Below are positions 1-64,000 of a stretch of 64,000 nt of DNA, in pieces. This stretch comes from Caenorhabditis remanei. Lineage: Eukaryota > Nematoda > Chromadorea > Rhabditida > Rhabditidae. The position numbers were made by a program, and so were the translations under genes. The stretch is taken from contig NC_071331.1 of assembly GCF_010183535.1 (NCBI RefSeq), positions 8,184,001 to 8,248,000 of the forward strand, given 5' to 3'. The stretch's first letter is position 1. Each line of letters starts with the position of its first letter. Below the pieces are notes generated by a model, which did no database searches, was not told the DNA's origin, and saw nothing but the letters and a program-made list of their open reading frames with translations.

Positions 1-393
1 AGAGGTTCAGAATCCTCACGGCGTCAATTTCGTCTGGAAATCGAGAAATGTTTAGCTGGAAATTTTTTTTTTTGAGAAATTCTATTAGGTCGGGCTTTTT
101 TTGGCCAGCTATTTGGTAATCTAGCTTTAACGAATTTCCAGACTTTTAAAACATGTGTGTTCTGTGAAAAGTACAGTTTCAACTAGTTCACAAAAATACC
201 AAAGCAATATTGGAAACATTGAAACTACTGTAGGGTTTGCTAGCTGAAAAAATGAATTTGATGAAAATAAAAAGATTTCGATCAGAAAGAAGTCGGTTAA
301 ATGGTGTACATTTTCCTAATTATCAGGATTTTGAAGGAGAAAAATTCCTGTTTCAAAAATAACATTTTATAGCTCGAGCTCATTGCTCTATAG

Positions 394-414
394 TGGGTGA
401 CACGTATCGTTTCT
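394..414 (+). ncRNA. Predicted 21U-RNA (piRNA) locus
   Basis: The core CTGTTTCA lies at 348-355. The predicted 5' U is 39 nt after the core, in the YRNT context TAGT, and the RNA starts TGGGTGACAC. It sits in the intron just before the Vti1 last exon, on the same strand. Confidence 0.6.
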
Positions 415-465
415 ATTTTAAATCCTGGAAAAACTTTGAGTTCAACTATTCAAACCTAATTCCAG

Positions 466-678
466 ATCGGTACCGAAATGCTCTCTAACCTCGCCAGTCA
501 ACGTGAAACAATCGGTCGTTCACGTGATCGTCTCCGTCAATCGAATGCAGATTTGGGCAGAGCCAACAAGACATTGGGATCAATGATCCGTCGTGCTATC
601 CAGAATCGTCTTCTCCTTCTAATCGTCACTTTTCTTCTCTCATTCATGTTTTTGTATATCGTTTATAAGGCGATCTAA
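466..678 (+). CDS. vti-1: Vti1-type Qb-SNARE, last exon
   Basis: Vti1 SNAREs act in Golgi, endosome and lysosome membrane fusion as the Qb member of SNARE bundles. Only the last exon is visible: acceptor TTCCAG at 460-465, then 70 codons to TAA at 676-678. The translation starts I-G-T-E-M-L and contains the second half of the SNARE helix (QRETIGRSRDRLRQSN, LGRANKTLGSMIRRAIQNR) followed by a C-terminal membrane anchor rich in L, I, V and F, ending YKAI. Earlier exons must lie left of the window if this copy is functional. A polyadenylation signal AATAAA is at 909-914. The same exon occurs truncated at 12240-12302 and complete at 45754-45966. Family assignment is secure; which copy belongs to the working gene is not. 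Confidence 0.75.
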   Translation: MGTEMLSNLASQRETIGRSRDRLRQSNADLGRANKTLGSMIRRAIQNRLLLLIVTFLLSFMFLYIVYKAI

Positions 679-1193
679 TTTATTGAAATACGTATACTTG
701 CCTCCATTCTTCCCTTATTTATTTCCCATTTTCTAAATACCCATCCAGCCAAATTTTGAAACAAGTGACATATATTTTTGTATAGTTGTGATTGATTTTT
801 CTTAATTCTGACACGCCCCCTTTTCCCAAAATTCTAGTCGCTGCTCCCCGAGCAGTACCTTTCCCAATGTATATTTCTCTCCCAATGGATTAATATGAAA
901 TCTATTATAATAAAAATGGAATAATTGGATTCTTCCGATTCCATATATATTCCAAAATTGGGAAGGCGGAAGAACTGGGCGGCGGCTGACAGATATAAAG
1001 AAACTACTGGTTTCTCAGATTCAGGGGAAAATTATATGACCATCACATTTTCAGACGTAATAATTTTATTTCGGTTTCATAGTGGTTTCATTTTTTCAGG
1101 TGGTTTTTTTTAGTTGATCAGTTTGGGATAATATGTTTATAAATAAACTGTTTCAAAACGTTCGTATCCATTAACATGTTTGAGCTCTCTCAA

Positions 1194-1214
1194 TTGATCA
1201 TATATTGGCTGACC
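1194..1214 (+). ncRNA. Predicted 21U-RNA locus
   Basis: The core CTGTTTCA is at 1148-1155. The U lies 39 nt downstream in the context CAAT, and the RNA starts TGATCATATA. The same cassette occurs inverted at 46435-46501. Confidence 0.6.
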
Positions 1215-1219
1215 TATTC

Positions 1220-1524
1220 ACAATCTAGCAAAAAAGAAAACAACTATTTTTTGCTAATACATAGTAAAAAAATAGTTGTCTTTCTTTTTTCGCTATCTGG
1301 TGAATGGGTCCATAAGAAAGGAGAGGCTTGACAAATCTAGAAAACAGGATAGGAGTAAACTTTTGATGCCTTACGTTCTTGGGGAGCCAAAGCATTCGAA
1401 GAGTCCTTGTTGGAGACGGTCGGTGGAGCCAAGGGTTGATCGGGCAGAGCTTACGTTGGGTGACTTGAACTGACAATTTCGTTTTCTTATATGCAGCTAA
1501 TCCTGGGCGATCGTTATCTTGAGG
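1220..1524. other. Unassigned stretch with exon-like texture
   Basis: This stretch is less AT-rich than its surroundings. A 27-nt stretch at 1497-1523 looks like a small exon: it follows a good acceptor (TATATGCAG). The bases next to it read GAGGTGAGC when the inserted element at 1525-1714 is removed, which resembles a donor. No protein family is recognised. It may be a relic of an old gene. Confidence 0.2.
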
Positions 1525-1714
1525 CAAGGCTGTCAAAAAAGCCGTGGGCCGATTCTATATCTCAGTTCCCAGCCATGGAAAATTTCGCTTCTTCAGGCGG
1601 CCTTGTAGAGGACCAAAATATTAGTCGATGTACTAAAATTCAGCCCATTTAGTAAATCCGCGGCCTCGGCGGCCCTAAAAGCCGCGGGCCGCGGCTGGCC
1701 GTGCGACAGCCTTG
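1525..1714. mobile_element. GC-rich hAT-like MITE
   Basis: The element has 10-bp terminal inverted repeats CAAGGCTGTC...GACAGCCTTG and a GC-rich inside (GCCGCGGGCCGCGG). It is flanked by a perfect 8-bp target duplication TCTTGAGG at 1517-1524 and 1715-1722. An 8-bp duplication is the hallmark of hAT transposases. No coding capacity is present, so it is non-autonomous. Confidence 0.75.
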
Positions 1715-1749
1715 TCTTGAGGTGAGCACTATCTGAGGTCAGAGATCAC

Positions 1750-3860
1750 GAAAGTCCTCCGAATGGCAGAAGGTTATTGAATTTATTGCCGAATCATTTT
1801 GATTAGATATCTGTGAATTTAATAGACGCCATAGAGTTGTAAGGCTGGTTACTCAAGCTCGTGAATTAATGGCTAATCAACTCTATGAAATTCTGTTTCT
1901 TGTTCCCGTTAAGAAGTATTAATATTTAATGTCCTTTGATGCTCTGACTTTTTTTTTCAATTCAAAATTGATTTACTTATTCAGTCTTAAATACCACGTT
2001 CACAACTTTCGATATGTAGTCCACCTATGTCTAAAACGCTGTCAAGTTATACAGTTCTTGAATGTAAATTCCATGAAACAGTTAATTCTTTTTTTTAAAT
2101 TCACTGCTTCATTAGGCCGAGATAATTTTCATTTTTTGAAATGGTTGATGTTTCCTTTAGTTATCAGTTACAAGGGAACCCCAAGACCATGCAAATGCTA
2201 TTTTGCTGAAACTTTCAGGATAGGTTAAAAATGGTACAAAAAAACGATCCTGAGATTTTTGAAATCCGCCCGATACTTTCAGCCGAGTTATGAGCTCTCA
2301 AAGTTTTGTTCGGATTTAATACAGGAAACCTCATTTTCTCGCTCGGAAGCAATTCCCAAAATATCTCTGCCCTCTAGTTGGTGATTTTTCAGAAGTACCA
2401 CTTTGTATTCCAGAGAGAGATGTATTCCAGAGAGTCAACGTCTCCCAGAGAGACGTGTACCACTTTGTATTTTTTGAGGATATGTCTAGGAGTAGCCAAT
2501 GGATCTTTCTCGGTGACCTTGCCCATTTTGACGGTTTTTACTGAAAAAAAGGAATAATTATTAGGTTGGTAAATAATTTTCTGCAATTTTCGAGCTTGCC
2601 GGTTGTCGTTTTGTTTTCTCGGCACAGGAGTAGTTTTTCGATGTGGTTGTTTTTGTGTTTGGTAGACCTACTCAAGTACTTGTTACAGTGTCAAAGTTTT
2701 ACTCCTCGCTTTTTTTCTCGCCGAGAACGGAGCTTTGATTTACACGCAACTTTTTGCGTTTTTGAAACGTCTTTTTGTTTTCAATCGTTTCTGGTCTAAA
2801 AATTATTTCATTCAAAAGGAAGTTGCTGGTGTATGTTAACAGAGGTCTCTTTGTTTCAACGCAAATACATTTTAATTCCAAAGATTTGGCAAAAGAAACT
2901 TGGATCTGACTGAAAAAATTCTTCTCTTTCAGCAGTCAGTGCTAGATTTGGAGTTATTGCAGGGAATCGTAGAAGCGGATCTGTGTCAAACCACACGTAG
3001 GTTGTCAACTTCTTTAAGGGTGACTTATGTAACTGTAGTTCATGAATGGAAACAAATAATCGGAATGAGAAAATTCGTCGTTACATACCACTCGTTTTGA
3101 AACAACATAAGATGGCACATCACATGGACCTAAGTTGGTTCTTAGTACTTTTACACCCAACACACGTGTGGTCAAGCTGTTTATTTATTAGAAATAAATA
3201 GTTGAGTTGTTACTTTAACGATGTGAGGAAAGTACAGTGTGTGGACTAAGATTTACGCGTTCTGGATGTTCTCAAACCGAAAAAAGTGGTTTTTTAAATC
3301 TGGTACTCAGTACTCTGGGTGGAGTAGTGGGAACTCTTGAACGAAGATAAAAAAGTAACATCAGATGTTTACGTTTCTTATTTTAATAAATTTAAAATCA
3401 TGTGACTTCAGGACGGGGAGATATAACAAAACGGTGTTTTCAGTATGAAAAACCTTTTTCATGTGTTGGGAAAGTAACCCACAACAAACTGTTTCCATCT
3501 GGCTGGACAATACTTTTTTATTCATTATATTAATCCAACCTTCTTCTCTTTAAATACAAACATTTTGCCTGACTTCAGCGGCATTTTAATAGGAAAGAAT
3601 CCAAATAAAAAGGGGATATCAAAAGGAAGCAAGTTTCCTTTTCCAGTGATCTCGAATAGATGGTCTACGCAGAGAGAATCAGTAAGCTACCAAAATCTTG
3701 TCAGAAGACTACCGATGCTGATAAACAATATTCTGAATTTTAGAAACCTTTCTGGATTTGAAAAAATAAAACCAAAGTTTTATCGAAAAATTGCAGAAAA
3801 TTATGTACCAGCCTAATATAACAGTTTATAACTTGAGCTCACTCATTGCTCGATAATTGA
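1750..3860. other. Gene-poor stretch
   Basis: No coding region is recognised here. There is one exact piRNA core (2074-2081), one degenerate core (CTGTTTCC near 3489) and a small local repeat of AGAGAGA/CCAGAGAG words at 2395-2475. Confidence 0.5.
2015..2035 (-). ncRNA. Predicted 21U-RNA locus
   Basis: The core reads TGAAACAG on the plus strand at 2074-2081. The U lies 39 nt downstream on the minus strand in the context CGTT, and the RNA starts TTTAGACATA. Confidence 0.55.
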
Positions 3861-3870
3861 TGGTACGATT

Positions 3871-4294
3871 CATAGTTGTCCGGAATCCGGATTCCGAAAA
3901 TTCCGGATTCCGGAATTCCGGGTTTTTTGACATTCCGGTTCCGGAAAATGAAAATTTTCATTTCGGTTCCGGATTCCGGATTCCGGAAAATTAAAATTTT
4001 GATTCCGGATTCCGGATTCCGGTTTTTTTGAATTTTTTTCCGGAATTCTGAAGTTCAAATTTTAAATTTTTTTTTGAGTTTTAAAGACAACTGCATTACT
4101 TATTTTTCGGTTTTGAACCTCAAAAGTAGTCTTAAACTTTATATAGCATTAAAACCACTCGAAAAAATGACTTGGCCTTGCGAATTTATCGAATCATTCC
4201 GGATTCCGGATTCCGAAATTCCGGGTTTTTTTGTCATTCCGGTTCCGGATTCCGGATTCCGGTTTTTCGGAAAATGGCATTCCGTACAACTATG
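3871..4294. mobile_element. Heptamer-rich hAT-like MITE (ATTCCGG type)
   Basis: The terminal inverted repeats are CATAGTTGTCCGGAAT at the left and ATTCCGTACAACTATG at the right. The flanks GTACGATT and GTAGGGTT match at 6 of 8 bases, consistent with an aged 8-bp target duplication. Both arms are built from tandem ATTCCGG-type heptamers (about 3881-4030 and 4195-4275). The middle is AT-rich and non-coding. The architecture matches the elements at 12796-13260 and 18030-18555, but with a different heptamer. Confidence 0.6.
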
Positions 4295-4505
4295 GTAGGG
4301 TTGATTAGCTAAAAAAGAATTTGATGAAAATGAAAAGATTTCGATTAGAAAGAAGTCGCTTTCTCGGGGAAATCTAGAAAAAACGCTTATCTACAGTTTC
4401 TCTAGGATCAGGATTGTGAATTTAAAAGTAATAGAAATTTCTCTGAATTAGAAAAATTCCTGTTTCAAATATAACATTTTACAACTCGAGCTCATTTTTC
4501 GTTAC

Positions 4506-4526
4506 TAACCCTTGGCATGGTACTTC
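4506..4526 (+). ncRNA. Predicted 21U-RNA locus
   Basis: The core CTGTTTCA is at 4460-4467. The U lies 39 nt downstream in the context TACT, and the RNA starts TAACCCTTGG. It is paralogous to the loci at 394 and 12167: flanks and spacing are kept but the RNA body differs. Confidence 0.6.
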
Positions 4527-5071
4527 ATTCTTGAATTTTGCGAAAACTCTTTGATGGTTTTTTTCTAGTGGATCCACACATAAAGCTATTGATAGCTCTA
4601 ATCACAAGAATTTCTATGAATTGATCGAATGAATGACCATTACATTTTCAGACACACTGTTTTATATTCCAAGTTGTATTCTTTTTCTAGTTGATACATT
4701 TGCAATTCCAAAGCGAATAGTTTTATTATTGTTTCAAAATTTTCTCATCCATAAACATGATTGAACTCTACAGTAAATGGATTTCGGTAGAAATTAGCCG
4801 TTTCAGATGTATGATGAGTACATTGAACGAGTTACTCATATATTATACTCATATTATTCTTTAGTTCCGAATTCCGTTCAGAAAGTTTTCTCACGATTCA
4901 GAGGCTAGGTACACATATATTTTCGTTGATCTTCAGTAACTCGAAACAATGAAACCGAATAACGTAAATTTTATTTTATTTCAGTTTCACAATGATTTTT
5001 CAAACCTAATAATAATTTTATAACTGTTTCAAAACATTCAAAACATGCTTCACGTTTTCTTCTAATGCCGA

Positions 5072-5092
5072 TTATTAGATCTACACGGTATT
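5072..5092 (+). ncRNA. Predicted 21U-RNA locus
   Basis: The core CTGTTTCA is at 5024-5031. The best initiator is CGAT, with its T 41 nt downstream; the RNA starts TTATTAGATC. An alternative start lies at 35 nt (TAAT). Confidence 0.45.
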
Positions 5093-5180
5093 GAAATGTC
5101 ATTTTCTCAGATTGCAGTTCTAATACGTCACAGTTTGACGTGTTTCTGGTGTTTTCTGTGTTCTGCGGCACCCGCTTCAT

Positions 5181-6480
5181 AAAGCCTGAAACTTCCTGCC
5201 GTCCCTTTAACTAATTTCTTAAGTAACTTCAATCAATTGGAAATGTAAGTTTGTTGAATTAATTGTAAGCCTTGTTTCGAGCCTGTTTGTTTTTAGACTC
5301 GATATTTCGTTAGCTTCGAAAAAATGCCAATTCATTATTAAGTCGATCAAGTTCTACCAAAAATTTGAATTCATAGTAGTGTAGCCGAACAATTCTTGAA
5401 GTGCAGACCCGTTGCAAGTGTAAATTGAAGTCTACAGTACCACTTAAAGTATATGGTTTTTCAATTATAATGTTTATTTCCCCTCGTGTTTTTTCTCTTC
5501 ATCTTATACAGTTATAGTTCTCTCGGCGCCCTTAATGAACTTACTTCTTGAAATATCTGTCTGCTTTGAGTTGGAATTAAAACAAGGAACGAAAAAGAGT
5601 GGTTGACTCCGCAGGAGCGCCACATCTTACATGATTTTCCTAAAATCCTGAGAAGATTTTTCCCATCAATCCATTGATCGTTTGATCTTCCTTGACGAAA
5701 AAATCATAAATGAAAACAGAGATCCTCCAAGTCGAACAGAAAATCAAACCGATTGGTCATTGTGAAATCTGGAACTGGCTTGATAGAGAAGGGAGTAATT
5801 CAATCACAATAACCGATGTTCCTGGGAAAGTAACCAAAAATTAAAAATAAATCTGAATGGGATCCGAATCCCAGACTATTCGTGCTTGGGTGCAAAACCA
5901 ATAAGGGTAGCGCCCCGATCAGAATTTCGACTCTTATCCTTTATCCTAAACCAAATTCTAAGACCCTCCTTACCTTATCAAAAATCCAGAAAATCCTCCT
6001 CCAGCCAAACCATTCATAAGAAAATCGAGTATAGACGAGCAGGGAAACTGGTTGAATAGAGTGGATTAGAACGGGAGATCAATAAGATGCCACGTGGAGA
6101 TCGTGGAAAAATCCACGTGTTATTTCCCGACATCCGCAGTGATTGGAAAAAAAGTCACGTTTTAATTTGACGTTAAAAAACTTTTTTCGAGAATTTTTTC
6201 ACTTGAAAATTACACGTTTCTTTTAAAAATTATAAGTTACTGGCGCTACTTATTGTCACAGAAATTTTGACGATATCGCCGAGCAAATCGGCGCGAACGG
6301 ATCCACGCTCGAATAAAAAATTAGAAAAAAAAATCAGTTTCAAATCGATCACATTGTGATAAACCGATTCATCGAATAGTGTTTGCTTGAAATGGTTCTC
6401 TCTGTTTCGTTTCCTTTTTTGTATTGAATAAATTTATTTTTTGGTCAATTCTTGTTAATTGTTTTTCCCGAATCTGCAGA
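5181..6480. other. Gene-poor stretch
   Basis: No recognised gene. A 44-codon open frame (5709-5843, starting MKTEILQVEQ) ends in a possible donor (GGGAAAGTAACC), but it matches no family I know and has no visible partner exon. A GATCGTGG/CCACGTG-rich patch lies at 6080-6130. Confidence 0.4.
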
Positions 6481-6496
6481 AGATTCTCAAGATAAA

Positions 6497-6517
6497 CATA
6501 TGTCTTCGAAATCAAGA
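6497..6517 (-). ncRNA. Predicted 21U-RNA locus, degenerate core
   Basis: The core has one mismatch (CTGTTTTA on the minus strand, 6556-6563). The U lies 39 nt downstream in the context TGTT, and the RNA starts TCTTGATTTC. Confidence 0.4.
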
Positions 6518-6736
6518 ACATTCCAAAATATAATATTACCTCTTAAAAATGCATTTAAAACAGTAAAAAATTTTCTGTTCTGATTTCTTTATTTGAAGAC
6601 CGATCTTGTTTTTTTGCTCAATCCTAGCAATTTACAACCATTTTTAATTGTCTCTGTCAGGATTATTGAAGTTTCCCGTTAAAAAAATTTGAAACAGTAA
6701 AAAAATTCCAGACTTTTTTTGGAAGATACAAATAAT

Positions 6737-6757
6737 TTGTTGACACAATTAGTGGTA
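6737..6757 (-). ncRNA. Predicted 21U-RNA locus
   Basis: The core TGAAACAG is on plus at 6796-6803. The U lies 39 nt downstream on minus in the context CACT, and the RNA starts TACCACTAAT. The neighbouring core at 6690-6697 has its first YRNT (CAAT) only 43 nt downstream. Confidence 0.6.
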
Positions 6758-7084
6758 GTGCTAGAAGCATAACTGTTTTCAAAGTGAAGAAATTTTGAAA
6801 CAGTAACTTTATTTTTCTCACAATAGGTTTATTATCAAAATCACCCTTTTTCCTTTTTTCTTAAATAGACATTTCTGAAACAATTAAAAACACTGTTTCA
6901 GAATTTAATACCACTCGATGGGGGAGCATTGGTTTGCAAAACATGTTATTTTGATTTAAAAATTCTGAAATAGTAAAAATTTGGAGCTTATGCCATATCC
7001 TTGTTTTTCAGTCTCACTAAAAATTTTTCATTCACGTTTTTAAACAAAAAGTTTTGAAACAATAAATCCCGGGTTGAATTTCTA

Positions 7085-7165
7085 CAGTAGCGGGGCCGTT
7101 CGGGCCAACAGGCTGACCGGGCCGGGCTGAGGAAAATTTTTCAGTCGGCCCGGCCCGGCCCTGTC
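7085..7165. repeat. CGGGCC-rich inverted repeat
   Basis: Two GC-rich arms made of GGGCC/GGCCC words face each other around an AT-rich spacer. It resembles the better preserved element at 27619-27977. Confidence 0.45.
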
Positions 7166-8210
7166 CATAATTTCCCAACCCTGCAAATAATAAAGCGACC
7201 CAGAATGGTTACAACCAGTTGAACCTTCCAAATTGATTGAAAGATACTCTCTGAATGAATGTTTTTCAGACGGATTATGAGAATTCTGCTACATATATGT
7301 ACTTCGAACTATCGTGCTTCCATCCCAAAATCCAAAACATCTAAAAAGAAAGAAACTGTCTGAAACAGTATATGTTCAGAGAAAAACGAACCAATTCTGA
7401 AAAATTGTTGGTCTGAAGATACCCTGTTTCTGGCTCACATGAACTGATAACTGAATGATTATTGTCAGTTCGCTTCAGTTTTGAGATTCTGGGAAAATTG
7501 ATACATCAGCATGGAAAATGTCGGCAAAACCATACATTGTCAGAAATTGAAACATCTGCTTAACAGAAACACACAGTTTGATTTTAAAAGTTTTTTATAA
7601 ATTTACGAAAAGTGTTATACAAAAAATATTTAAAAACATTGTAACTAAGAAACAAACATCAAACTCATTTGATGTGTTTGAAACATTGAAAAATCGAATA
7701 GTCATAGGGGGAGCTCAGACTCAAGTTAAAATGAATCCAATTTAGTTGAATTGGGGTTTCATTTTCCATGTAATGTACTCCATCAAACAACACTTCTTGA
7801 TACTATTCCGTAACAGGAAATACAGCGCGTCCGATAATGTTAACACACCCCCCTAAATCGAAGATTCTGAGAAAATGGGATGTGATCTGAAAAAAACTGT
7901 GAATGCAGTTCGATTCAGCATTTTTGAAAACCCCTACAAACAAATTTCTGGAAAAAATAAACTATTCCTGGTTAATTCCCCATGCAATGTATTTTTTTTA
8001 TCAAACAACACTTCTTGTTACTGTTCCGTAACAGGAAATATTAGAAAAATGTTTCAGTAACATGATATTGGATCGGAAGTGGCTGTGGATCTGCTAAATA
8101 CTTTCTTCAGGAATCTCAGGATAAATTGAAAACTATCTCAGGAAAATTGTACCGCTTTTTCAGTATAGGGAATTTGTTAATCTGTTGATAATATTGTTTT
8201 TTATCCAAAC

Positions 8211-8231
8211 GGAACGTAATATTTCCTCCGA
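8211..8231 (-). ncRNA. Predicted 21U-RNA locus
   Basis: The core TGAAACAG is on plus at 8269-8276. The U lies 38 nt downstream in the context TATT, and the RNA starts TCGGAGGAAA. Paralogues at 43311 and 50115 use the same 38-nt spacing. Confidence 0.6.
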
Positions 8232-8789
8232 ATAAATAGAATTCGGAATCCCATAAAACTAAACAAATTGAAACAGTAATTCCAAAATTCCATCTCATTA
8301 TTATTCCTCCCTTCCGATTTCCTTTTATTCCTCACACCTGATTCATTCCAAAATAGGGTGGGGAGACGGAGGAATCAGGATGATATACTGGTTTCTCAGA
8401 TTGATACAATTTGAACAAATTAAACAGAAAAAGGGGAAAGTGATATAGATAGATTGATTGAATGACCATTACGTTTTCAGACACAATGTTTTGTATTCGA
8501 AGTTGTATTTCTTTTTCTAGTTGATACATTTGCAAAAGCGAATAGTTTTTTAACTGTTTCAATTCCTTGCAGTTTGAACACTTTTCGAATTGAAATGTAC
8601 CTTGGTCTAGTTTCAACTGGTTCTAAAACGTATTCCTCTTGAATCCCACACATTTTACAATCAGTACCAAAATTGGTTCTCAAAAAAAAGTTGTTGCCTC
8701 AGAAGATATTTCACTAATCCCTAACAATGCCATGAAAATGAAATAGTTACGACCACTGTGCTTTTTCATTTTTACGATCTATTTTTTTA

Positions 8790-8810
8790 AATAAATATTG
8801 CTCCAGAGCA
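8790..8810 (-). ncRNA. Predicted 21U-RNA locus
   Basis: The core TGAAACAG is on plus at 8849-8856. The U lies 39 nt downstream in the context TAAT, and the RNA starts TGCTCTGGAG. Paralogues at 44284 and 50999 keep the core, spacing and TAAT but differ in the body. Confidence 0.65.
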
Positions 8811-9764
8811 TTATGTAACACCTCTGAGAGCAGTTTTTAAAAACGGAATGAAACAGTAACTTTTCTCGAACAATTTAATGTTTCAATCAGCTAGATAGTT
8901 GTTACAGTTTTGAACTTTTTCCGAAAAAATGCGCACTTTTTTAAATGAAAAATAAAAAAAAATTGGTTAAAATGGATACACGTTTACCCGAAATCGTAGT
9001 TTCTCAAAAAATGTTTTGATAGACTGATGTAGTTTGAACTGTTTGAAGAGTCTGGGAAAAAAAGATTACCTTAAAGGCGCAGAGGAAAACGCGGAAAAGA
9101 AATGGCTACTTTGGACACTTTTTCCGCGCGGATTTTCCGCGGAAAAGTTACTTTGGACGGAGCATATCAATCAACTTAAAAATGAATTCGATAATAACTG
9201 GATTTTTTTGCTAAGCATGTCCGATGCAACGACCGACTTTCGTACTTTGACGATATACTTTAGTATATGAAAAAATTACGATTCCCTTCAATAACTCCAA
9301 AAACAGCTCTGACTGTTTACAGAGATGAGTTCTTCCAGTCAGATCTAATATGTTTGTTTCAAATCTGACTCGTATTGACGTACATCAGCAATTTTCTTTC
9401 GACTTACAGCATTTTTTTAGACCGGAAACGAATAAAATAACAGTTTCGAAAACGCAAAAAGTAGAAGAGAAATTAAGGCGGTGGCAAAAAGAGAGAGAAA
9501 TAAAATATTCGGCTGGAAGTACTTGACATGTTGGAAGTACTTGAATAGGTCTATCAAACACCAAAATAACCACAGTGAAACATAAGTTTTCTCTCTTAAA
9601 TAATGAAAGTTTATCTGCAGAAAATCTCTTAATAGTATTTTTTGCAACGTTTTTTAATTTTTTAAACGAAATGTCTGGAACATAATATTCTTCTCATTAT
9701 CAAAAAATTGTTTTTCCTCTGATTCAAAATCAGCACTTATTCATGTTTGATAAAACTTTATTGA

Positions 9765-11618
9765 TATAAGACAGGCCAAATTTGAAAATTTTTTTCCTCG
9801 ACAGTTTTCTCTTTGTATTTGGCAAAAAATGGGAAACTCATAATTGTTAAAATCTGGCGGATTTTTGAAAAGTATGTGATTTTTAACAGAGTTTTATGAA
9901 TTCTCAGCTAGTCGAATTTTTCTGGAAAAGTTAACTCATACTAGAAACTTTCTCTTTATTAGGATTTGATTAACGACAAGTTGGTAAGACTGGAACAATG
10001 TTCACAAAAATTTTATTAAAGGAATATAAAAAGACAAACACAGAAACGTAACAGTTACACTTTTGTGAAAAACAGAAAAGAAAGTACGTGAAAATTAGAA
10101 TAATTTTGATTTCACGTGACGAACTCGGGCCTCCCCAAAATCGAAACTGTTACAACTCTGGGAATTATCCACGTATCGTTGTGTATGAATTTCAGAGAGC
10201 TACCTGAAATTAAACGAATTGAACGTATTGACATATAAAAAGAAAACGACAAACCTCATTGTGACTTAGAAGACCATTTTGTAAGATATCAACATAAACC
10301 AATAGCTACGATAGATTGATATAAATAAAATTTCGCTCCAAACGCAATATAATATATCTGAAAATCTGGAAGGATCATTCTTGAAACCGTAATCGTTAAG
10401 TTACCTTCTTAACTGTATTGAGTAGACCAATTAGCATTAAAAAGCCAAGTAATAGAATTGGGAATTGAAAATTAGATGAAAAATCTGCAAATTTGTGGTT
10501 GTTTCTTACCTGGATTCAATAATTTTCTCTGGAATAGGCATATTTCAATGTATAGGGCTTTATCTCATATCAGCAAATTTACCAGCAAGAAGGAATAAAA
10601 CAAATCATCAAAACAAATGACGTGTCACTCAAAAAACAAAGGACGTTTTTCAACGTGGCTTGTTATTTTAAATTCTGCCACGTTTATAAAAAAATACATT
10701 CTGGAAAGAAAACCACGTTTTGATGATTTGTTTTATTCCTTCCTGTTGGTAAATTTGCTGATATGAGATAAAGCCCTATACATTGAAATATGCCTATTCC
10801 AGAGAAAATTATTGAATCCAGGTAAGAAACAACCACAAATTTGCAGATTTTTTATCTAATTTTCAATTCCCAATTCTATTACTTGGTTTTTTAAAATGCT
10901 AATTGGACTACTCAATACTGTTAAGAAGGTAACTTAACGATTACGATTTCAAGAATAATCCTTCCAGATTTTCAGATATATTATATTGTATTTGAAGCGA
11001 AATTTTATTTATATCAATCTATCGTAGCTATTGGTTTATGTTGATATCTTACAAAATGGTCTTCTAAGTCACAATGAGGCTTGTCGTTTTCTTTTTTTGT
11101 GTCAATACGTTCAATTCGTTTAATTTCAGGTAGCTCTCTGAAACTCATACACAACGATACGTGGATAATTTCCAGAGTTGTAACAGTTTCGATTTTGGGG
11201 AGGCCCGAGTTCGTCACGTGAAATAAAAATTATTCTAATTTTCACGTACTTTTTTTTTCTGTTTTTCACAAAAGTGTAACTGTTACGTTTCTGTGTTTGT
11301 CTTTTTCAATAAAAACTGGTCGAATTTTTACGTAACTCTTTTTGAAACTGTTTCAAAAAATCTAATTGACAGCTGACTTTAATCAGTTTCTACAAACCAG
11401 TTGAGGAAAAACTGTCATTTCGTGGAAATCCTGTTGAATTTCCCAGAAGTTCTAAAATTTTTCCGTTTTCTAACAATTTTGGGAGATTCATTCAATTTCC
11501 ACATCAATTCTTGGAATTTCGCAACACTCAATTTTTTCTGTAAAAACTCGCAGGAAAGTTGAAAATTTGTGAAAAAACAGACGACGAAAAAAAATTTTCA
11601 AATTTGGCCTGTCTTATA
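9765..11618. mobile_element. Nested palindromic transposon, outer element
   Basis: The outer ends are an inverted repeat of about 35 bp beginning TATAAGACAGGCC and ending GGCCTGTCTTATA, bounded by TA dinucleotides as in Tc1/mariner-type elements. No transposase frame is seen. A long internal palindrome (10029-11308) appears to be a second element inserted within it. Confidence 0.55.
10029..11308. repeat. 1.28-kb near-perfect palindrome
   Basis: Two arms of roughly 600 bp are inverted copies, for example GACAAACACAGAAACG at the left and CGTTTCTGTGTTTGTC at the right. The centre is near 10650. A transcript through it would fold into a very long hairpin. No coding frame is recognised. Confidence 0.8.
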
Positions 11619-12166
11619 TAACTGCTTCAAAAAATACTAAAGAATTTTTTTTGAAAAACTGTCCTGCACACTGTCACGGATCCCTCGGAGCTTGAGCTGA
11701 AATCTTTCTTCCAACTGATAATCATCGTGTCACTTTGTGAACATAGGTGATTTTTAGTCTGGAAATTCACAACTTTTTAGCTCGAATTTTTTTTGAGAAA
11801 TTCTTGGTCAGGATTTTTTTTTGGCCAGCTAGTACTCTAGCTCGAAATTTTTTTCAATGAATTTTCAGACTTTTGCTGTATGTGTTTTGTGAAAAATACA
11901 GTTTCAACTAGTCCACAAGTATACCAAAGCAAAATTAGAAACATTGAAATGCCTGTTGAAGTGATTAGCAGAAAACAAAAAACTTGAAGATTTCGATTAG
12001 AAAAAGGTCGGTTTCTTGAAGAAATTTAGATAACAACGCTTTACTACAGGTTCCCTAGGATCAGGAATTTTAATTTAAAAAAGAAAATTTCTTAGAAGAT
12101 TCTCTGAATGAAAAAAATCCCTGTTTCAAAAATAACATTTTATAATTCGAGCTCATTGCTCGATAG

Positions 12167-12187
12167 TAAGTGAGCCGGTTTCATTTG
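12167..12187 (+). ncRNA. Predicted 21U-RNA locus
   Basis: The core CTGTTTCA is at 12121-12128. The U lies 39 nt downstream in the context TAGT, and the RNA starts TAAGTGAGCC. It is the positional equivalent of the locus at 394, with a different body. Confidence 0.6.
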
Positions 12188-12239
12188 ATTTTTAAATCCT
12201 GCAAAACCTTTGAGTTCAACTAAACAAACCTAATTCCAG

Positions 12240-12302
12240 ATCGGCACTGAAATGCTGTCGAACCTTGCCAGTCAACGTGAAACAATCGGTCGTTCACGTG
12301 AT
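12240..12302 (+). pseudogene. Truncated Vti1 last exon
   Basis: After the acceptor ATTCCAG the first 21 codons of the Vti1 last exon are kept (IGTEMLSNLASQRETIGRSR and one further residue). The sequence then jumps directly into the 3' UTR (CTATAATTCTGACACGCC), deleting the rest of the SNARE helix and the membrane anchor. This copy cannot encode a functional SNARE end. Confidence 0.8.
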
Positions 12303-43706: not shown

Positions 43707-43727
43707 TTCTTTGCAGTTTGAACACTT
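43707..43727 (+). ncRNA. Predicted 21U-RNA locus
   Basis: The core CTGTTTCA is at 43661-43668. The U lies 39 nt downstream in the context CGAT, and the RNA starts TCTTTGCAGT. Confidence 0.55.
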
Positions 43728-44304: not shown

Positions 44305-44569
44305 TTATGTAGCACCTCTGAAAGCAGTTTTTATAAACGGAATGAAACAGTAACTTTTCTCGAACAATTTAATGTTTCAATCAGCTAGATAGTTGTTACA
44401 GTTTGGAACTTTTTCCGAAAGAATATGCACTTTTTGAAATGAAAAATTGAAAAAAAAACAAAAAATTTGGTTAAAAATGGTAACACGTTCAAAATTGTAG
44501 TTTCTCAAAAAAATGTTTTGATAGACTGATGTAGTTTGAACTGTTTGAAGAGTCTGTGAAATTTCTTAC

Positions 44570-44577: not shown

Positions 44578-44644
44578 CCGTAAAAAACTGTATTAGAGCG
44601 AAACCTTTAATAGAACATCGAGTATCAACACTCAATCCAACGCC

Positions 44645-45966: not shown

Positions 45967-46434
45967 TTTATTGAAATACGTATACTTGCCTCCATTCTTC
46001 CCTTATTTATTTCCCTTCTTCTAAATACTCATCCAGCCAAATTTTGAAACAAGTGACATATATTTTTGTATAGTTGTGATTGATTTTTCTTAATTCTGAC
46101 ACGCCCCCTTTTCCCAAAATTCTAGTCGCTGCTCCCCGAGCAGTACCTTTCCCAATGTATATTTCTCTCCCATCGGATTAATATGAAATCTAATAAAAAC
46201 GGAATAATTGGATTCTTTCAATTCCCATTCACTCCAAAATGAAGAACAGGGAGGAAGAAAATTATGAGAATATACTGGTTTCTCAGATTGATACAAAATT
46301 AAACAGAAAAGGGGAAAGTTATATGGATTGATTGATTGAATGACCATTACATTTTCAGACACAAAGTTTTATATTTCGGTTTCATAGTGGTTTCATTGTT
46401 TTAGGTGGTTTTTTCTAGTTGATCAGCTTGGGAA

Positions 46435-46455
46435 CCTTGACACGAATACTATCAA
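46435..46455 (-). ncRNA. Predicted 21U-RNA locus, inverted cassette
   Basis: The core TGAAACAG is on plus at 46494-46501. The U lies 39 nt downstream in the context CAAT, and the RNA starts TGATAGTATT. It is the inverted counterpart of 1148-1214. Confidence 0.6.
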
Positions 46456-46754
46456 TTGAGAGAGCTCAAACATGTTAATGGATACGAACGTTTTGAAACA
46501 GTTCATTTATAAACATATGACGTCCGCGGAAAATGGAAAAAGAAGGTCACGTTTTCAATTTGTCGTTTTAGAAAAAACAACTTTTGTTCAGAATTTTTTC
46601 ACTTGAAAATCACGCGCTTCTTTAAAAAAAGTTTAAAAAAGTTAAAAAAGACAAAACAGTTAAAAATGTTCTGTTCTGATCTGTTTATTTATTTGAGAAC
46701 CGATCTTGTTTTTTGCTCAATCCTTTCAACAATAATTGTCTGTCCGTCATTATG

Positions 46755-46775
46755 ATTGAAGTTTCCCTTGCATGA
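46755..46775 (-). ncRNA. Predicted 21U-RNA locus
   Basis: The core TGAAACAG is on plus at 46814-46821. The U lies 39 nt downstream in the context TACT, and the RNA starts TCATGCAAGG. The locus at 47900 predicts the same RNA. Confidence 0.6.
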
Positions 46776-46895
46776 GTATGTTTCGTTGCAACACTCTCCT
46801 AACACAAATGAAATGAAACAGTATCCATGTACATATTTTAATGAATTTTCTGTTTCGGTAAACCATGATATTCTGATATACGGATTGAATACTAA

Positions 46896-47769: not shown

Positions 47770-48130
47770 ATCTTGAAAACGCATTCAACAAAACAGTAAA
47801 AAATTTTCTGTTCTTATCCGTATCTTTATTTGAAAACCGATCTTCTTTTTGCTCAATCCTATCAATAAACAACCATTTTTGTCTGCCTCCGTCATTATGA
47901 TTGAAGTTTCCCTTGCATGAGTATGTTTCGTTGCAACACTCTCCTAACACAAATGAAATGAAACAGTATCTATGTACATATTCTGATATACGGATTGAAT
48001 ACTAATCCGTCTGTTCTCTGAAAACGATTACTCTCAATCACAATCTGCTTCTAAAAAAGGTATTGATCCTGGTTTTCAGATACTCAGCAGGATAAATAAT
48101 TTGATTGAAACGAAAGGAGACTAAGAAACA
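47770..48130 (+). repeat. Direct repeat D, copy 2
   Basis: Second copy of 46640-47000, with small indels. Confidence 0.7.
47900..47920 (-). ncRNA. Predicted 21U-RNA locus
   Basis: The core TGAAACAG is on plus at 47959-47966. The U lies 39 nt downstream in the context TACT, and the RNA starts TCATGCAAGG, the same as at 46755. Confidence 0.6.
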
Positions 48131-50114: not shown

Positions 50115-50135
50115 GAACGTAATAAATCCTCTGCA
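50115..50135 (-). ncRNA. Predicted 21U-RNA locus
   Basis: The core TGAAACAG is on plus at 50173-50180. The U lies 38 nt downstream in the context TATT, and the RNA starts TGCAGAGGAT. Confidence 0.6.
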
Positions 50136-50998
50136 ATAAATAGAATTCGGAATCCAATAAAACTAAATAAATTGAAACAGTAATTCCAAAATTACATCTC
50201 ATTATTCTTTTTCCCTTCCGATTTCCTTTTATCCCTCACACCTCATTCATTCCAAAAAGGGTGGAAGAACAGGGAGACGGAGGGAATGAGGAGGATATAC
50301 TGGTTTCTCAGATTGATACAATTTGAATAAATTAAACAGAAAAAGGGGAAAGTGATATGGATTGATTGATTGAATGGTCATTACATTTTCAGACACAATG
50401 TTTTTATTTTGAACTTGTATTTCTTTTTCTAGTTGATACATTTGCAATTCCAAAGCGAATAGTTTTATAACAGTTTCAAAACGTTCTTATCCATAAACAT
50501 TTTTGAACTCTCAGTTCTATTCTGTCCCTGTTTCTTACGAACTGTATATCTAACCTAGATCTTCGCTTTTGTAATTGATATCAAATGTGTACAAGTCCGG
50601 TCTGAAAGTTACAGATCGGCAAATTGTCAGTTCAAAATAATGTGATTTAAATTGGGGAACTGTAACTTTTCAGAGCGGAATCGTACAAAAAAATTGTCTG
50701 TTACAAAAGTGAAGCTCTAGGTTTGATCTACATAAATTTGGGGTTATGAGACACACTCTCAAAGAAATCAACAACGTTTTGACCGGTACTGTACTTAATT
50801 TTTTCAGTTTCACTTATTCCTCTATTGTTCCTTGATCTGTGAATTATACTTCCACACTTTTCACACTCAGTACTAAAATTAGTTCTCAAAAAGAAGTTAT
50901 TGCCTCAGAAGATATTTCACTAATCCCTAACAATGTCATCGATAGTAATCAGTTACGATCACTGTGGGTTTTTTATTTTTACGATCTATTTTTTAAAT

Positions 50999-51019
50999 AA
51001 ATGTTGCCATTCGTTAGCA
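50999..51019 (-). ncRNA. Predicted 21U-RNA locus
   Basis: The core TGAAACAG is on plus at 51058-51065. The U lies 39 nt downstream in the context TAAT, and the RNA starts TGCTAACGAA, one base different from the RNA start at 44284. Confidence 0.65.
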
Positions 51020-51319
51020 TTATGTAGCACCTCTGAAAGCAGTTTTTATGAACGGAATGAAACAGTAACTTTTCTCGAACAATTTACTGTTTCAATCAGC
51101 TAGATAGTTGTATCAGTTTCTTGGTTAAAAAAATTGGTTAAAAATGGTAACACGTTCAAAATCGTAGTTTCTCAAAAAAATGTTTCTGGAAGATAAAGAA
51201 TACCGAACATCTGCAATAAAATACATTGTCATAAAAAAATACAGGGAAACAGTGACTTTTTCTAGAAACTCGCTGTTTCAACAGTTTTATATATTTCTTA
51301 GTGTTTGGGATTACGATGG

Positions 51320-51340
51320 TGTAAACAATTTGTACTTTCA
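51320..51340 (+). ncRNA. Predicted 21U-RNA locus
   Basis: The core CTGTTTCA is at 51273-51280. The U lies 40 nt downstream in the context TGGT, and the RNA starts TGTAAACAAT. Confidence 0.45.
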
Positions 51341-53958: not shown

Positions 53959-53979
53959 CCTTCCATTTTCGGTAAATCA
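53959..53979 (-). ncRNA. Predicted 21U-RNA locus
   Basis: The core TGAAACAG is on plus at 54017-54024. The U lies 38 nt downstream in the context TGAT, and the RNA starts TGATTTACCG. Confidence 0.55.
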
Positions 53980-54029
53980 TCAAAAATAAAGTTTCATTAG
54001 TATTACATGAACATATTGAAACAGTACTA

Positions 54030-55851: not shown

Positions 55852-55872
55852 ATCAATATATTTCAATTATTA
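55852..55872 (-). ncRNA. Predicted 21U-RNA locus
   Basis: The core TGAAACAG is on plus at 55911-55918. The U lies 39 nt downstream in the context TAAT, and the RNA starts TAATAATTGA. Confidence 0.5.
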
Positions 55873-56342
55873 TTATAAAAAGGAACCAACCGAACTGAAA
55901 ATGTTTTTAGTGAAACAGAGATTACTGATTCTTTTGGTTCCTCGTAATAATTTTCAAAACTCGACAATTAAAGTTTTTTTAATGATTATCTGGAAATTCA
56001 AGTTAGGAAATGGATTATAGGTGGAGAGTTGAACAAATTATTGATTAAAAGTAATCCTGGAGCTCAAATCGGTTATGATATAAGAAAGGCAGAATTTGGA
56101 AAGTTTTAATTTTGATTAACAAAATACGAAAAAGCTAAAAATTTCTGTGAATGCTCACAGGATAATTTCTTTTTTGCAAAAAATTGCATTTTACCTGAAA
56201 ATTCAATGTTTTTGCACAGAAAAAGTTGCGATCAGAGCAAATTAAGATAATTCTGTTGGGGAGTTCCAGTAAAATAACCACTATGGGTTGTTTCCAGTTC
56301 CACCTCATATAAAGCCTACGTTTTCTGAAACTTCACATCATT

Positions 56343-57561
56343 GATAAATACGTGAACTTTATTCGAATATCAGAAACAGAATCGGCAACGTCGCCAACTC
56401 TGTGAAAAACAATTGAACTGGAGGAAAAATATAAAAACACGTGAACTACACAGGGAAGAAAAGAATTTCCAGAATCGGCAAAGTTGCCGATCCTGTTATT
56501 AAAAGATATTCCAAAAAATTTAAAAACGTGAACTCGGTGACAGTAGAGAGGGTAGTTCGTGGATAGAATCGTTCTTAGAAATCGTGAAAACTGTCGATAA
56601 AATAAAGTATATGCCGACGATGTATATTCGATGCGTGTCATACAAGTCTAAGTTGTCTGAAATAATAATGGTTTATAAAAACTTTGTTTTCTGTTACTAA
56701 CCTTTCTGAAGTTTTATTCCAATTGTATCAAAATGAAGTGAGTGATAAACCAACACTTCTAGTTATTGATTCAAAAATAGACTGACAAACTGATAATTTG
56801 GGTCCTGCAATATGAATTTGTATAATGTTGTATACGACTTACCTGTCCGCGAGAAAAACGCTTTCAAATAGTTTTGCATTCAGATAGTGCGAGAATGAAA
56901 AACATTGCTCTAGAACCGCGTTTTTATAAATCTAGGGCACGTTGATATTTTTTCAACGGTTTTTATTCCGTGATATTTATTTGAATGCGAAGAAAATTCA
57001 TTTCTCATTCTGCGGTAGTGTTATGAGATATTTTTCGTTTTCTTTTGCGGCATAAAAGTAAGTCGTATACAACATTATACAAATTCATATTGCAGGACCC
57101 AAATTATCAGTTTGTCAGTCTATTTTTGAATCAATAACTAGAAGTGTTGGTTTATCACTCACTTCATTTTGATACAATTGGAATAAAACTTCACAAAGGT
57201 TAGTAACAGAAAACAAAGTTTTCTATAAACCATTATTATTTCAGACAACTTAGACGTGTATGACACCCATCTAATATATATCGTCGGCATCTACTTTATT
57301 TTATCGACAGTTTTCACGATTTCGAAGAACGATTCTATCCACGAACTACCCTCTCTACTGTCACCGAGTTCACGTTTCTAAATGTTTTGGAATATCTTTT
57401 TTTAATAACAGGATCGGCAAGCTTGCCGATTCTGGAAATCCTTTTCTTCCCTGTGTAGTTCACGTGTTTTTTATATTCCTTCTTCAGTTTATTTGCTTTT
57501 CACAGAGTTGGCGACGTTGCCGATTCTGTTTCTGATATTCGAATAAAGTTCACGTATTTAT
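56343..57561. mobile_element. 1.2-kb palindrome in the piRNA cluster
   Basis: Arms 56343-56843 and 57058-57561 are inverted copies (ATAAATACGTGAACTTTATT at the left end and its complement at the right). Smaller inverted units AATCGGCAACGTCGCC and TCGGCAAAGTTGCCGA lie within the arms. No exact piRNA core is inside, and no transposase is seen. Confidence 0.7.
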
Positions 57562-59353: not shown

Positions 59354-59590
59354 TTCCCCGACTTATTAAACAGAAGAAGCATGTTTCATAAAGTTATTAA
59401 AAACAACATTTTGTTTTAAGTTACGTTCTGGACTTAATTACTGCAACCATCACAAGTTTCATAAACACTACCTGTAGCACTTCCCTAGAAGCTTGTCACT
59501 GATAATTTACTATTCGAGGCATCCGAAATGCTAAGAGTGATTTTCTGTTTCACAACCCTGTACTCCTGTGAAAAATATTTTTCAAAACGT

Positions 59591-59611
59591 TTTTTTAACA
59601 AAATTTTCTTT
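59591..59611 (+). ncRNA. Predicted 21U-RNA locus
   Basis: The core CTGTTTCA is at 59545-59552. The U lies 39 nt downstream in the context CGTT, and the RNA starts TTTTTTAACA. Confidence 0.45.
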
Positions 59612-59950: not shown

Positions 59951-59971
59951 AGCCTGAGAGAGGTTTTATAA
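59951..59971 (-). ncRNA. Predicted 21U-RNA locus
   Basis: The core TGAAACAG is on plus at 60010-60017. The U lies 39 nt downstream in the context TAGT, and the RNA starts TTATAAAACC. A second core 11 bp away (59999-60006) has no matching initiator. Confidence 0.55.
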
Positions 59972-60085
59972 CTAAATTGAACATACGCTCCGAATTTCTG
60001 AAACAGCTGTGAAACAGAAAAAGTGTGTAACCTTAATTACTGTTTCAGTACAGTGATATGGGGTTCTAATGAGATTATTGAACAG

Positions 60086-60106
60086 TCAATCATGATTTTT
60101 TATTCA
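60086..60106 (+). ncRNA. Predicted 21U-RNA locus
   Basis: The core CTGTTTCA (preceded by TTA) is at 60040-60047. The U lies 39 nt downstream in the context CAGT, and the RNA starts TCAATCATGA. With the minus locus at 59951-60017 it forms a divergent pair only about 20 bp apart. Confidence 0.65.
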
Positions 60107-61715: not shown

Positions 61716-61764
61716 TCACTGTTTCAATTCAATGATAATTTTAGTGAGTTTTGAAGAAATATAA

Positions 61765-61785
61765 TGAGTAATTCTCAAAATGGGG
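61765..61785 (+). ncRNA. Predicted 21U-RNA locus
   Basis: The core CTGTTTCA is at 61719-61726. The U lies 39 nt downstream in the context TAAT, and the RNA starts TGAGTAATTC. Confidence 0.6.
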
Positions 61786-61871
61786 AACATATTCTCATAA
61801 GTTTTTCATGTTTCCGAGTTTACACTGTTTCAGTTCTATGATAGTTTCCGTGGATTTTCGTAGATATTCGC

Positions 61872-61892
61872 TTGGATATTTTTTTCACAACC
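61872..61892 (+). ncRNA. Predicted 21U-RNA locus
   Basis: The core CTGTTTCA is at 61825-61832. The U lies 40 nt downstream in the context CGCT, and the RNA starts TTGGATATTT. It lies only 106 bp after the previous core, on the same strand. Confidence 0.5.
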
Positions 61893-62254
61893 AGCACTTA
61901 TTCATTTTTACTGAGTATCACAATTATGTGTGCCCTGATAATCCTCCCTCAAAAAGTACAAAAGTATATTTGAAACACCTGCCCTGCATAGCTTTTTTTC
62001 GGAATTATTCGAGTTTAGCTCTAGGGAACTTTTGAAATACTAGCAATTCGTTATTTTGATGTAGTGATTAATTGTGCAACAATATTTTTGAAATGAGATG
62101 TCTGAAATATGGGATTTTAAAATTATTGGACAGCGACATCGTGTCAATAATTAATCGATCGTTTTCCTACTCTTGAACATAAATCTCTGAAACGGTATAC
62201 GAATTTTTTAAAATACATTCCTCGCATTCTCCGCTTTAACACTTATTTAAATAG

Positions 62255-62275
62255 TTTGGCCAATTTCCGATATTA
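62255..62275 (-). ncRNA. Predicted 21U-RNA locus
   Basis: The core TGAAACAG is on plus at 62314-62321. The U lies 39 nt downstream in the context CAGT, and the RNA starts TAATATCGGA. Confidence 0.6.
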
Positions 62276-62329
62276 CTGTCATTTTCAATCCCTTCTCTTT
62301 CTTGATAATAGATTGAAACAGATAATCAT

Positions 62330-63245
62330 TCTCTCCGGATTCAATTCCGTTTTTTCTCGTTTCTCACTCAACAGATTCAAAGTTTTTACCACGTGGCTTG
62401 ATTATCTTTTTTTTCTACTTCCTGAAGCTTCATCAGAAACCAAAATTCAAATTTCAGTTCCAATTCCCTCTATAATTCATCTTCTTCACCAAAGTCTCGT
62501 GTCCTTCCAACATTGTAACAATTCGCTTTCGAAATGAAATTCCCGTTAATTTCACACACCGCCCATTTTCTTCTCGTTACCAGAAGAATATGACTAGATA
62601 TGAGAATGTTTGTACATGCATGCAAATGCGATATACTTCTTCTTTTTCATACACTGTTTGGTTTTCGTTTTCGTTTTTTCCTTTTCTTGTTCTTCTTGTG
62701 TTTCTGTGTACTTTGAAAGGATTACTATAGAGAGGGTGTCTGGGAGAAAGTTCTCAAGGCTAGCACTCTTCGGTTTCAGCAAATTTTGAATAACTTTTTT
62801 CGTCTGCTCATGAATTCGGGGGTTTTCGAAATTTTGAACACATAAATGATTTTGCTCCCGGTCGTTCAGACTTTCTTAATTGAAAATTATTCTCAGTTTC
62901 ATTTTGACATGATTGGTCAGAAAAATTAATTGACACTTTGATCTCTCAGGGTCTTTGTCTCCAAACTTCGGTACCGTTTTCTCCTGGTCGCGCTCGGTTT
63001 GAAAACTTCATCCTGTTACTGAATTTGGTTCCATTTTGACGGCATCTGGGGGGCGAGTATGGAAATTAAACGGGCTCCACTGGAGGCAAATTCAAATATT
63101 AATTGCTTCATTTGCTTTTTCATTGTGGCTTTTTGAAACGCACTTTCTTAGGAAGTTTTTCGACTGGCGCGTCATTTCAAATTCAGTTCTATCAAAAAAT
63201 GATTACAATTTTTAAAGAAAGCATTTACTATGAATTTAAGCGGAG
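62330..63245. other. No recognised feature
   Basis: Ordinary AT-rich DNA; no exact piRNA core and no coding frame that I can support. Confidence 0.4.
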
Positions 63246-63249
63246 CGCG

Positions 63250-63990
63250 GCTGATTTTAGAGCTATTCTTATGGTAATTGTCTTGACTAAAAAGTATCTA
63301 AAAGTCTAATTATCTGTTAAATATTAGTTTTCCCATAAACATCGGGAAATTTTTTAGCGGGATCTGAAACGGAATTATTTTTTCTGTTCTATTTCAGTTT
63401 GTAACAATATTACATATTATCTGGCTTCAGTGGAACAACTGTGATCAATTTATTGTGCTACACAATTTTTGGATTTTATGAAACTGAAGGAAAATCAATT
63501 GCAAATTTTTGTTACGAACGTATAATCACGGGCTCCATTAATCAAGAGGCGCGTTTTTAATACTCTCAAGTTTCTCAGTTCCAAATTGAAATCATAAAAA
63601 GTTGAGAAACTGATTTCTCGGTTACTCCCTCCAGTATAGCTCTCGTAGAAATAAAATGAGACGTTATTCATAAATAAGTTCAAAGTATCGAATAAAAATA
63701 ATAGAATTCGAGAACAAAAATTAAGAACACGTCAGGTAGAGACAAACCGTAGCTTTTGATCGGAAAAATACCTTATTCGCAGTAGCCTTGATGTTTTTAG
63801 TTGAAATTCAAAGTTGGCTGCCAAAAGCGGTGCTGAAATTATAAGTTTTAGTCAGCTTCATCCATTTCTCGACCGATTTTCTGGCATAACATTGATTTTA
63901 CCCTGTAACTGATACAAGAAAATCTGGAAACTGAAATGTCTTCACAGTTTCTCTTCATCGAAAAAGGAGCTGTTTTGTTGAGAGTACTTC
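63250..63990 (+). repeat. Segmental duplication C, copy 2
   Basis: Second copy of 41180-41900, diverged, in the same orientation. It runs to the window edge. Confidence 0.65.
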
Positions 63991-64000
63991 TTTGGGTGTC

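Follow-up and report, generated by a model that had tools for sequence, protein, structure and literature searches.

A cluster of predicted type-1 21U-RNA loci on Caenorhabditis remanei chromosome IV and the divergence of its duplicated copies

Cores, spacing, and predicted loci in the window

We analyzed a 64,000-nucleotide (nt) stretch of Caenorhabditis remanei PX506 chromosome IV (25.8 Mb; positions 8184001-8248000), hereafter the window, as a candidate cluster of loci for 21U-RNAs, that is, PIWI-interacting RNAs (piRNAs), small RNAs that protect the germ line. The strict core of the Ruby-motif promoter, CTGTTTCA, occurs 39 times in the window (18 on the plus strand and 21 on the minus strand). 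The expected count is 2.5 given base composition and 4.1, 6.2, and 7.5 under Markov models of orders 1, 2, and 3; at orders 4 and 5, where the model already includes part of the word, the values are 11.1 and 19.4. Among 840 letter permutations of the core (mean 2.8 occurrences), CTGTTTCA is the commonest, followed by ACTGTTTC (32 occurrences), which mostly overlaps CTGTTTCA.

We measured the spacer as the number of nucleotides between the core and the T of a YRNT initiator; at spacer 38, the T is the 39th nucleotide after the core. Of the 39 cores, 27 have YRNT at spacer 37 to 39 and 19 have it at spacer 38 exactly; off-target spacings average 3.5 (binomial p 1.5e-10 for spacer 38, duplication ignored). 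A preliminary description of this DNA had reported at least 38 exact cores against 2 to 3 expected, 27 with YRNT 38 to 41 nt downstream and 19 with the U exactly 39 nt past the core, and these counts are borne out, the 27 at spacer 37 to 39. When related copies are collapsed, the 39 cores reduce to 28 families, and the family-weighted count at spacer 38 is 11.8 of 28, compared to 0.7 to 4.7 at other spacings from 28 to 55. The spacing peak therefore persists despite the inflation of the core count by duplication, and the enrichment of the U over other spacings that the description proposed to look for in a motif scan is present after collapse as well. The description also had most cores extended to TACTGTTTCA, which is incorrect: that extension is found at 15 of 39 cores, and ACTGTTTCA at 25 of 39.

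For a broader survey, we used the relaxed core NNGTTTCA and defined a candidate locus as a core with YRNT at spacer 37 to 39. There are 169 relaxed sites in the window, 79 of which (47%) are candidate loci (43 on the plus strand and 36 on the minus strand). Letter-permuted decoy cores averaged 39.9 sites, of which 8.4 on average (21%; maximum 42) had YRNT at these spacers; therefore, part of the 79 candidates are chance matches. The sequence CTGTTTCG occurs six times in the window, with YRNT at spacers 37, 38, and 39 in one, three, and two cases, respectively. The first base of the core is C in 47 of the 79 candidates; in C. elegans, male 21U-RNA loci are enriched for C at this position (PMC3597512).

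The candidate loci are concentrated in two dense blocks, one at positions 1-12300 (25 candidate NNGTTTCA loci with YRNT, eight of them with CTGTTTCA) and one at 41401-64000 (48 candidates, 19 with CTGTTTCA). The 29 kb between them (12301-41400), which contain protein-coding exons, have six candidates, none with CTGTTTCA, and one of the 39 strict cores overall (binomial p 2.6e-9, with boundaries set after inspection). The cluster thus does not extend across all of 1-64000, as had been claimed. Sub-clusters split by piRNA-poor regions correspond to the "clusters-of-clusters" of PMC6436959.

The 27 loci with a strict core are all predictions from CTGTTTCA plus YRNT at spacer 37 to 39. On the plus strand, they are 348-414 (core 348-355, 21U 394-414), 1148-1214 (core 1148-1155, 21U 1194-1214), 4460-4526 (core 4460-4467, 21U 4506-4526), 12121-12187 (core 12121-12128, 21U 12167-12187), 41436-41501 (core 41436-41443, 21U 41481-41501), 42412-42479 (core 42412-42419, 21U 42459-42479), 43661-43727 (core 43661-43668, 21U 43707-43727), 51273-51340 (core 51273-51280, 21U 51320-51340), 59545-59611 (core 59545-59552, 21U 59591-59611), 60040-60106 (core 60040-60047, 21U 60086-60106), 61719-61785 (core 61719-61726, 21U 61765-61785), and 61825-61892 (core 61825-61832, 21U 61872-61892). 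On the minus strand, they are 2015-2081 (core 2074-2081, 21U 2015-2035), 6737-6803 (core 6796-6803, 21U 6737-6757), 8211-8276 (core 8269-8276, 21U 8211-8231), 8790-8856 (core 8849-8856, 21U 8790-8810), 43311-43376 (core 43369-43376, 21U 43311-43331), 44284-44350 (core 44343-44350, 21U 44284-44304), 46435-46501 (core 46494-46501, 21U 46435-46455), 46755-46821 (core 46814-46821, 21U 46755-46775), 47900-47966 (core 47959-47966, 21U 47900-47920, identical to 21U 46755-46775), 50115-50180 (core 50173-50180, 21U 50115-50135), 50999-51065 (core 51058-51065, 21U 50999-51019), 53959-54024 (core 54017-54024, 21U 53959-53979), 55852-55918 (core 55911-55918, 21U 55852-55872), 59951-60017 (core 60010-60017, 21U 59951-59971), and 62255-62321 (core 62314-62321, 21U 62255-62275).

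Extent of the domain and local duplication

Across the genome, TACTGTTTCA occurs 3929 times and the reversed word 639 times. Our coverage of chromosome IV comprised the window and about 256 kb of samples; the domain samples beyond the window, 223.5 kb in total, were used for spacing counts and for the paralogue comparison below. These domain samples contained 127 cores, 40 of them with YRNT at spacer 38 compared to 11 at background spacings. Twenty 10-kb samples between 0.16 and 6.25 Mb held 111 cores (0 to 12 per sample), 31 at spacer 38, and samples from 9 to 13 Mb held 10 cores in 15.5 kb, with none at 11 Mb. From 14 to 25 Mb, we found one core in 31.5 kb, without YRNT, and 9 of 36 NNGTTTCA sites there had YRNT at spacer 37 to 39, close to the 21% decoy rate. 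Between 0.8 and 13 Mb, samples thus show, in patches, a core density and a spacing peak like those of the window, which is accordingly likely to be an unexceptional part of a large predicted piRNA domain. Among variant cores outside the window, ATGTTTCA (14 of 50), CGGTTTCA (9 of 30), and CTGTTCCA (8 of 18) also peak at spacer 38, CTTTTTCA gave no spacing signal, and the remaining variants gave weaker signals or none. For ATGTTTCA and CGGTTTCA, such a peak fits the NNGTTTCA consensus (PMC7884074).

A 10-kb region of chromosome II (1138001-1148000), picked for its motif density, contains 51 copies of CTGTTTCA and 35 of TACTGTTTCA on both strands, some as inverted pairs. Only 1 of the 51 cores has YRNT at spacer 38 (Fisher p 7e-8 compared to the window), which suggests that the spacing does not simply come with the core, and we rejected this array as a piRNA super-cluster because the piRNA spacing is missing. 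Of eight loci on chromosome I with TACTGTTTCA at their centre, two have YRNT at spacer 38; given this spacing, some of the eight may be piRNA loci. Four 2.5-kb samples of other chromosomes yielded three cores in 10 kb, one with YRNT at spacer 37 to 39, which are very small counts.

Within the window, piRNA-bearing stretches at approximately 0.1-1.0, 4.3-4.9, 7.2-9.0, 11.9-12.5, 43.1-46.4, and 48.3-51.1 kb contain copies of one another in differing combinations; the predicted loci at 8211 and 8790, for example, belong to duplicated families, the latter with a changed body. We searched the 130-Mb genome with four duplicated units and obtained 3, 6, 3, and 3 matches, every one within the window. 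With positions 1060-1260 as the query, the piRNA part matched only in the window and the remainder matched a dispersed repeat. Because the four units match nowhere outside the window, we disfavour promoters carried by transposons and prefer local duplication, which on this evidence multiplies the predicted piRNA loci.

Some copies have also been rearranged. Positions 1036-1128 are collinear with 46340-46433 (88% identity over the adjoining 94 bp). Beside them, the 68-nt segment 1131-1198, which spans the core, spacer, initiator, and first 21U bases of the locus at 1148, is inverted in place at 46451-46518 on the minus strand with 98.5% identity. As a result of this inversion, the predicted promoter at 46.4 kb (locus 46435-46501) would gain a new 21U body. 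Given that the segment lies inverted in place next to collinear sequence, we rejected the idea that it is a cassette copied into unrelated DNA. The core-to-start segment of the locus at 1148 also reappears at 43661, where the flanks are unrelated on both sides. Elsewhere, two copies of a duplicated unit (8554-8561 and 43661-43668) differ by about 37 nt right after the core; the copy at 8554 is missing the spacer, so its core and start no longer fit.

Local copying is also seen in another part of chromosome IV. The region at 1.42-1.77 Mb that includes our sampled loci L013 and L014 is a piRNA-bearing block with many local copies at 65 to 100% identity. The number of L013 relatives on the chromosome is a lower bound, as scoring covered 39 of the 2961 initial candidates. 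Two dispersed repeats interrupt L013, at about 1985-2371 and 4305-4692.

Divergence between paralogous copies

We compared paralogous copies from the window, the domain samples, and two 411-base pieces chosen for matching L013. Alignments came from an all-against-all blastn search in which each unordered alignment was counted once, pairs >99.9% identical were excluded, and the motif was required in at least one copy. We discarded an ungapped scan, in which indels inflated body divergence, and used gapped alignments instead. The final set contains 70 pairs in 37 families. This analysis is exploratory: the effect was first spotted by eye in families of the window, where the 21U body seemed less similar than the spacer, and it grew when thresholds were loosened afterwards (minimum length from 100 to 80 bases, E from 1e-12 to 1e-8, and addition of the 411-base pieces).

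Across the 70 pairs, substitutions affect 5.0% of core positions, 2 of 70 5' Ts, 244 of 1330 body positions (18.3%), and 1117 of 9684 flank positions (11.5%). The body/flank ratio is 1.59 for the 20-nt body, or 1.57 when adjusted for base composition; by family, 22 are up, 12 down, and 3 tied (Wilcoxon p 0.0075). With flanks counted from nt 27, the ratio is 1.60 (family bootstrap 1.26-1.94; leave-one-out 1.51-1.67). Families outside the window give a ratio of 1.66 (17 up, 5 down, 3 tied; p 0.001), and the 29 pairs with CTGTTTCA cores give 2.17 (11 up, 2 down; p 0.0034). A global aligner run at three settings on the same 29 pairs returned divergences of 0.26 to 0.30 at nt 2-11 compared to 0.12 to 0.15 at nt 28-95. 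Outside candidate loci, the same alignments differ at 914 of 8429 positions (10.8%), which points to acceleration in the body and not to slow flanks. Nucleotides 2 to 8 of a piRNA constitute its seed. At these positions, the ratio to flanks is 1.96 (1.46-2.52), and in CTGTTTCA loci it is 2.6.

Decoy cores behave differently: across 1004 pairs in 189 families, the ratio is 1.03, 14.6% of core positions are substituted, and the T differs in 131 of 965 cases, compared to 2 of 70 at candidate loci (Fisher p 0.005). GTTTCA sites without YRNT have neither a conserved core (15.6% substituted) nor a fast body (ratio 1.13, 0.87-1.35, 39 pairs). The constraint on the core and the T favours functional promoters and starts, and it constitutes, as far as sequence can tell, a functional signature independent of motif count. 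These data bear on the idea that local composition or the amplification of repeats produced the cores, which would then have no promoter function. Duplication in the window is real, with tested units matching three to six times, and chromosome II shows that the same core can form a dense array lacking piRNA spacing, both of which speak for this idea. The spacing peak nonetheless survives de-duplication and recurs in independent domain samples, and cores and Ts are more conserved than at decoys, which makes this explanation very improbable. A chance or compositional origin of the cores is rejected by the Markov and permutation counts, the family collapse, and the decoy cores.

Several results weigh against our reading of these loci as working piRNA genes with rapidly diverging bodies. 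At 12 of the 39 strict cores, there is no YRNT at spacer 37 to 39, and transcription of the predicted loci is something we infer by analogy. Families within the window alone give a ratio of 1.49 with 5 up and 7 down (p 0.73), and 3 up and 2 down for their CTGTTTCA cores. Where the core is not CTGTTTCA, the effect is weak, with a ratio of 1.25 over 41 pairs and of 1.14 in the first set. The first, stricter set gave a ratio of 1.40 (1.17-1.76, all differences), a value reached by 5 of 46 decoy words, and by family the signal there was weak, with 17 families up, 9 down, and 1 tied (Wilcoxon p 0.046, sign test p 0.17). Overall, the data suggest a divergence pattern that is statistically supported outside the window, yet exploratory and small.

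Bodies that diverge faster than their own flanks would reflect more than an absence of selection. One explanation is mutational: if RNA polymerase II (Pol II) pausing or terminating on a precursor of about 28 nt exposes the template, the whole transcript would mutate faster. Consistent with this, the raised rate in CTGTTTCA loci appears to reach about nt 25 (0.18 at nt 22-26 and 0.09 at nt 27-31), nearer the length of the precursor than that of the 21-mer, although this extent is based on few sites. The body spectrum is also near that of the flanks (transitions 0.41 and 0.47, respectively). A uniform effect of transcription, however, does not predict an excess that peaks at nt 2-8, and the C/T values (0.19 in bodies and 0.23 in flanks) do not point to single-strand deamination. 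We consider the mutational explanation a real possibility, though less likely than not.

Alternatively, bodies may be swapped in blocks behind a kept promoter by micro-rearrangement such as inversion, conversion, or template switching. The inverted segment at 46.4 kb and the core-to-start segment at 43661 amid unrelated flanks are what this process would produce, and the comparison of the locus at position 8175 of L013 with L014 is suggestive, with five differences in 150 aligned bases, every one clustered in body nt 2-7. In contrast, the pooled divergence is raised along the entire body rather than in one block, and we regard block swapping as improbable. Diversifying selection is a third possible explanation for the divergence, which we also consider less likely than not: cassettes of promoter, spacer, and start may be copied locally and rearranged on a small scale to give new piRNA genes, with bodies, and above all seeds, possibly driven at about twice the rate of the flanks by such selection.

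Genomic setting, known systems, and significance

Other features of the window accompany the predicted loci. Exons in the piRNA-poor stretch match a T-box domain (E 4e-26) and an Srh receptor (E 2e-25), and matches under the Pfam cut-off there resemble a Nup120/160-like propeller and a coiled coil. A major sperm protein gene (PF00635, E 3.9e-25) lies at 44597-45028, within the second dense block. There are four long inverted repeats (37331-38552, 10076-11257, 30427-31333, and 56496-57405; arms of 195 to 521 nt, 92 to 99% complementary), which are perhaps DNA-transposon-like elements, and a tandem array at 26059-26661 with five copies of a 121-bp unit (94% matches). Scans of the window returned 0 Rfam families at the gathering score and 0 tRNAs.

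The cluster is confirmed as real and of a known kind. The preliminary assignment to type-1 21U-RNAs is supported by the core, the spacing, the YRNT start, the presence of loci on both strands, and the location in a chromosome IV domain. With C. elegans type-1 loci, the cluster shares a core of CTGTTTCA or NNGTTTCA, a spacer of approximately 35 to 42 nt, and a start T (PMC3597512), as well as clustering within chromosome IV (PMC6436959). Unlike in that species, sampled C. remanei loci span roughly 0.8 to 13 Mb of the 25.8-Mb chromosome; the comparison covered motif and location. C. briggsae type-I clusters likewise have CTGTTTCA loci, a YR initiator, loci on both strands, and a chromosome IV location (one at 0.02-7.1 Mb), and this species additionally has a chromosome I cluster (PMC9683057). 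According to a review, 21U-RNAs are present in C. remanei (PMC6468775), and Piwi-domain genes exist in its assembly; our literature search found no paper placing C. remanei 21U-RNAs on the PX506 chromosomes.

We conclude that the window is very probably a piece of the type-1 21U-RNA domain of C. remanei chromosome IV, in which loci multiply by local duplication and bodies diverge fast. Each locus would be a tiny separate gene. Its Ruby-motif core would position Pol II initiation at a YR initiator roughly 38 nt downstream of it, and trimming of the resulting short RNA would leave a 21-nt product with a 5' U. From C. elegans and C. briggsae, we infer recruitment of SNPC-4 and PRDE-1, transcription by Pol II, and loading onto PRG-1. 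Local duplication would add loci that retain their promoter and start T but whose guide body would outpace the surrounding DNA in divergence, most of all at nt 2-8. Judging by these divergence rates, new guide specificities may thereby arise behind copied promoters.

The cluster itself represents a known system; what is new here is the divergence pattern of the copies. The piRNA sequences of C. briggsae and C. elegans are almost unrelated, from which little selective pressure was concluded, and the same paper asks how new piRNA genes arise (PMC9683057). A literature search by title and abstract start, covering few subscription journals, found nothing on how nematode piRNA bodies are selected or duplicated. 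The cluster gives a known piRNA system chromosome coordinates in an outcrossing species, and local duplication combined with fast seed change provides a concrete hypothesis that is testable with existing genomes and population data. If diversifying selection is indeed responsible, the process would act as a generator of the piRNA repertoire, would contradict the view that there is little selection on piRNA sequences, and would partly answer how new nematode piRNA genes arise.

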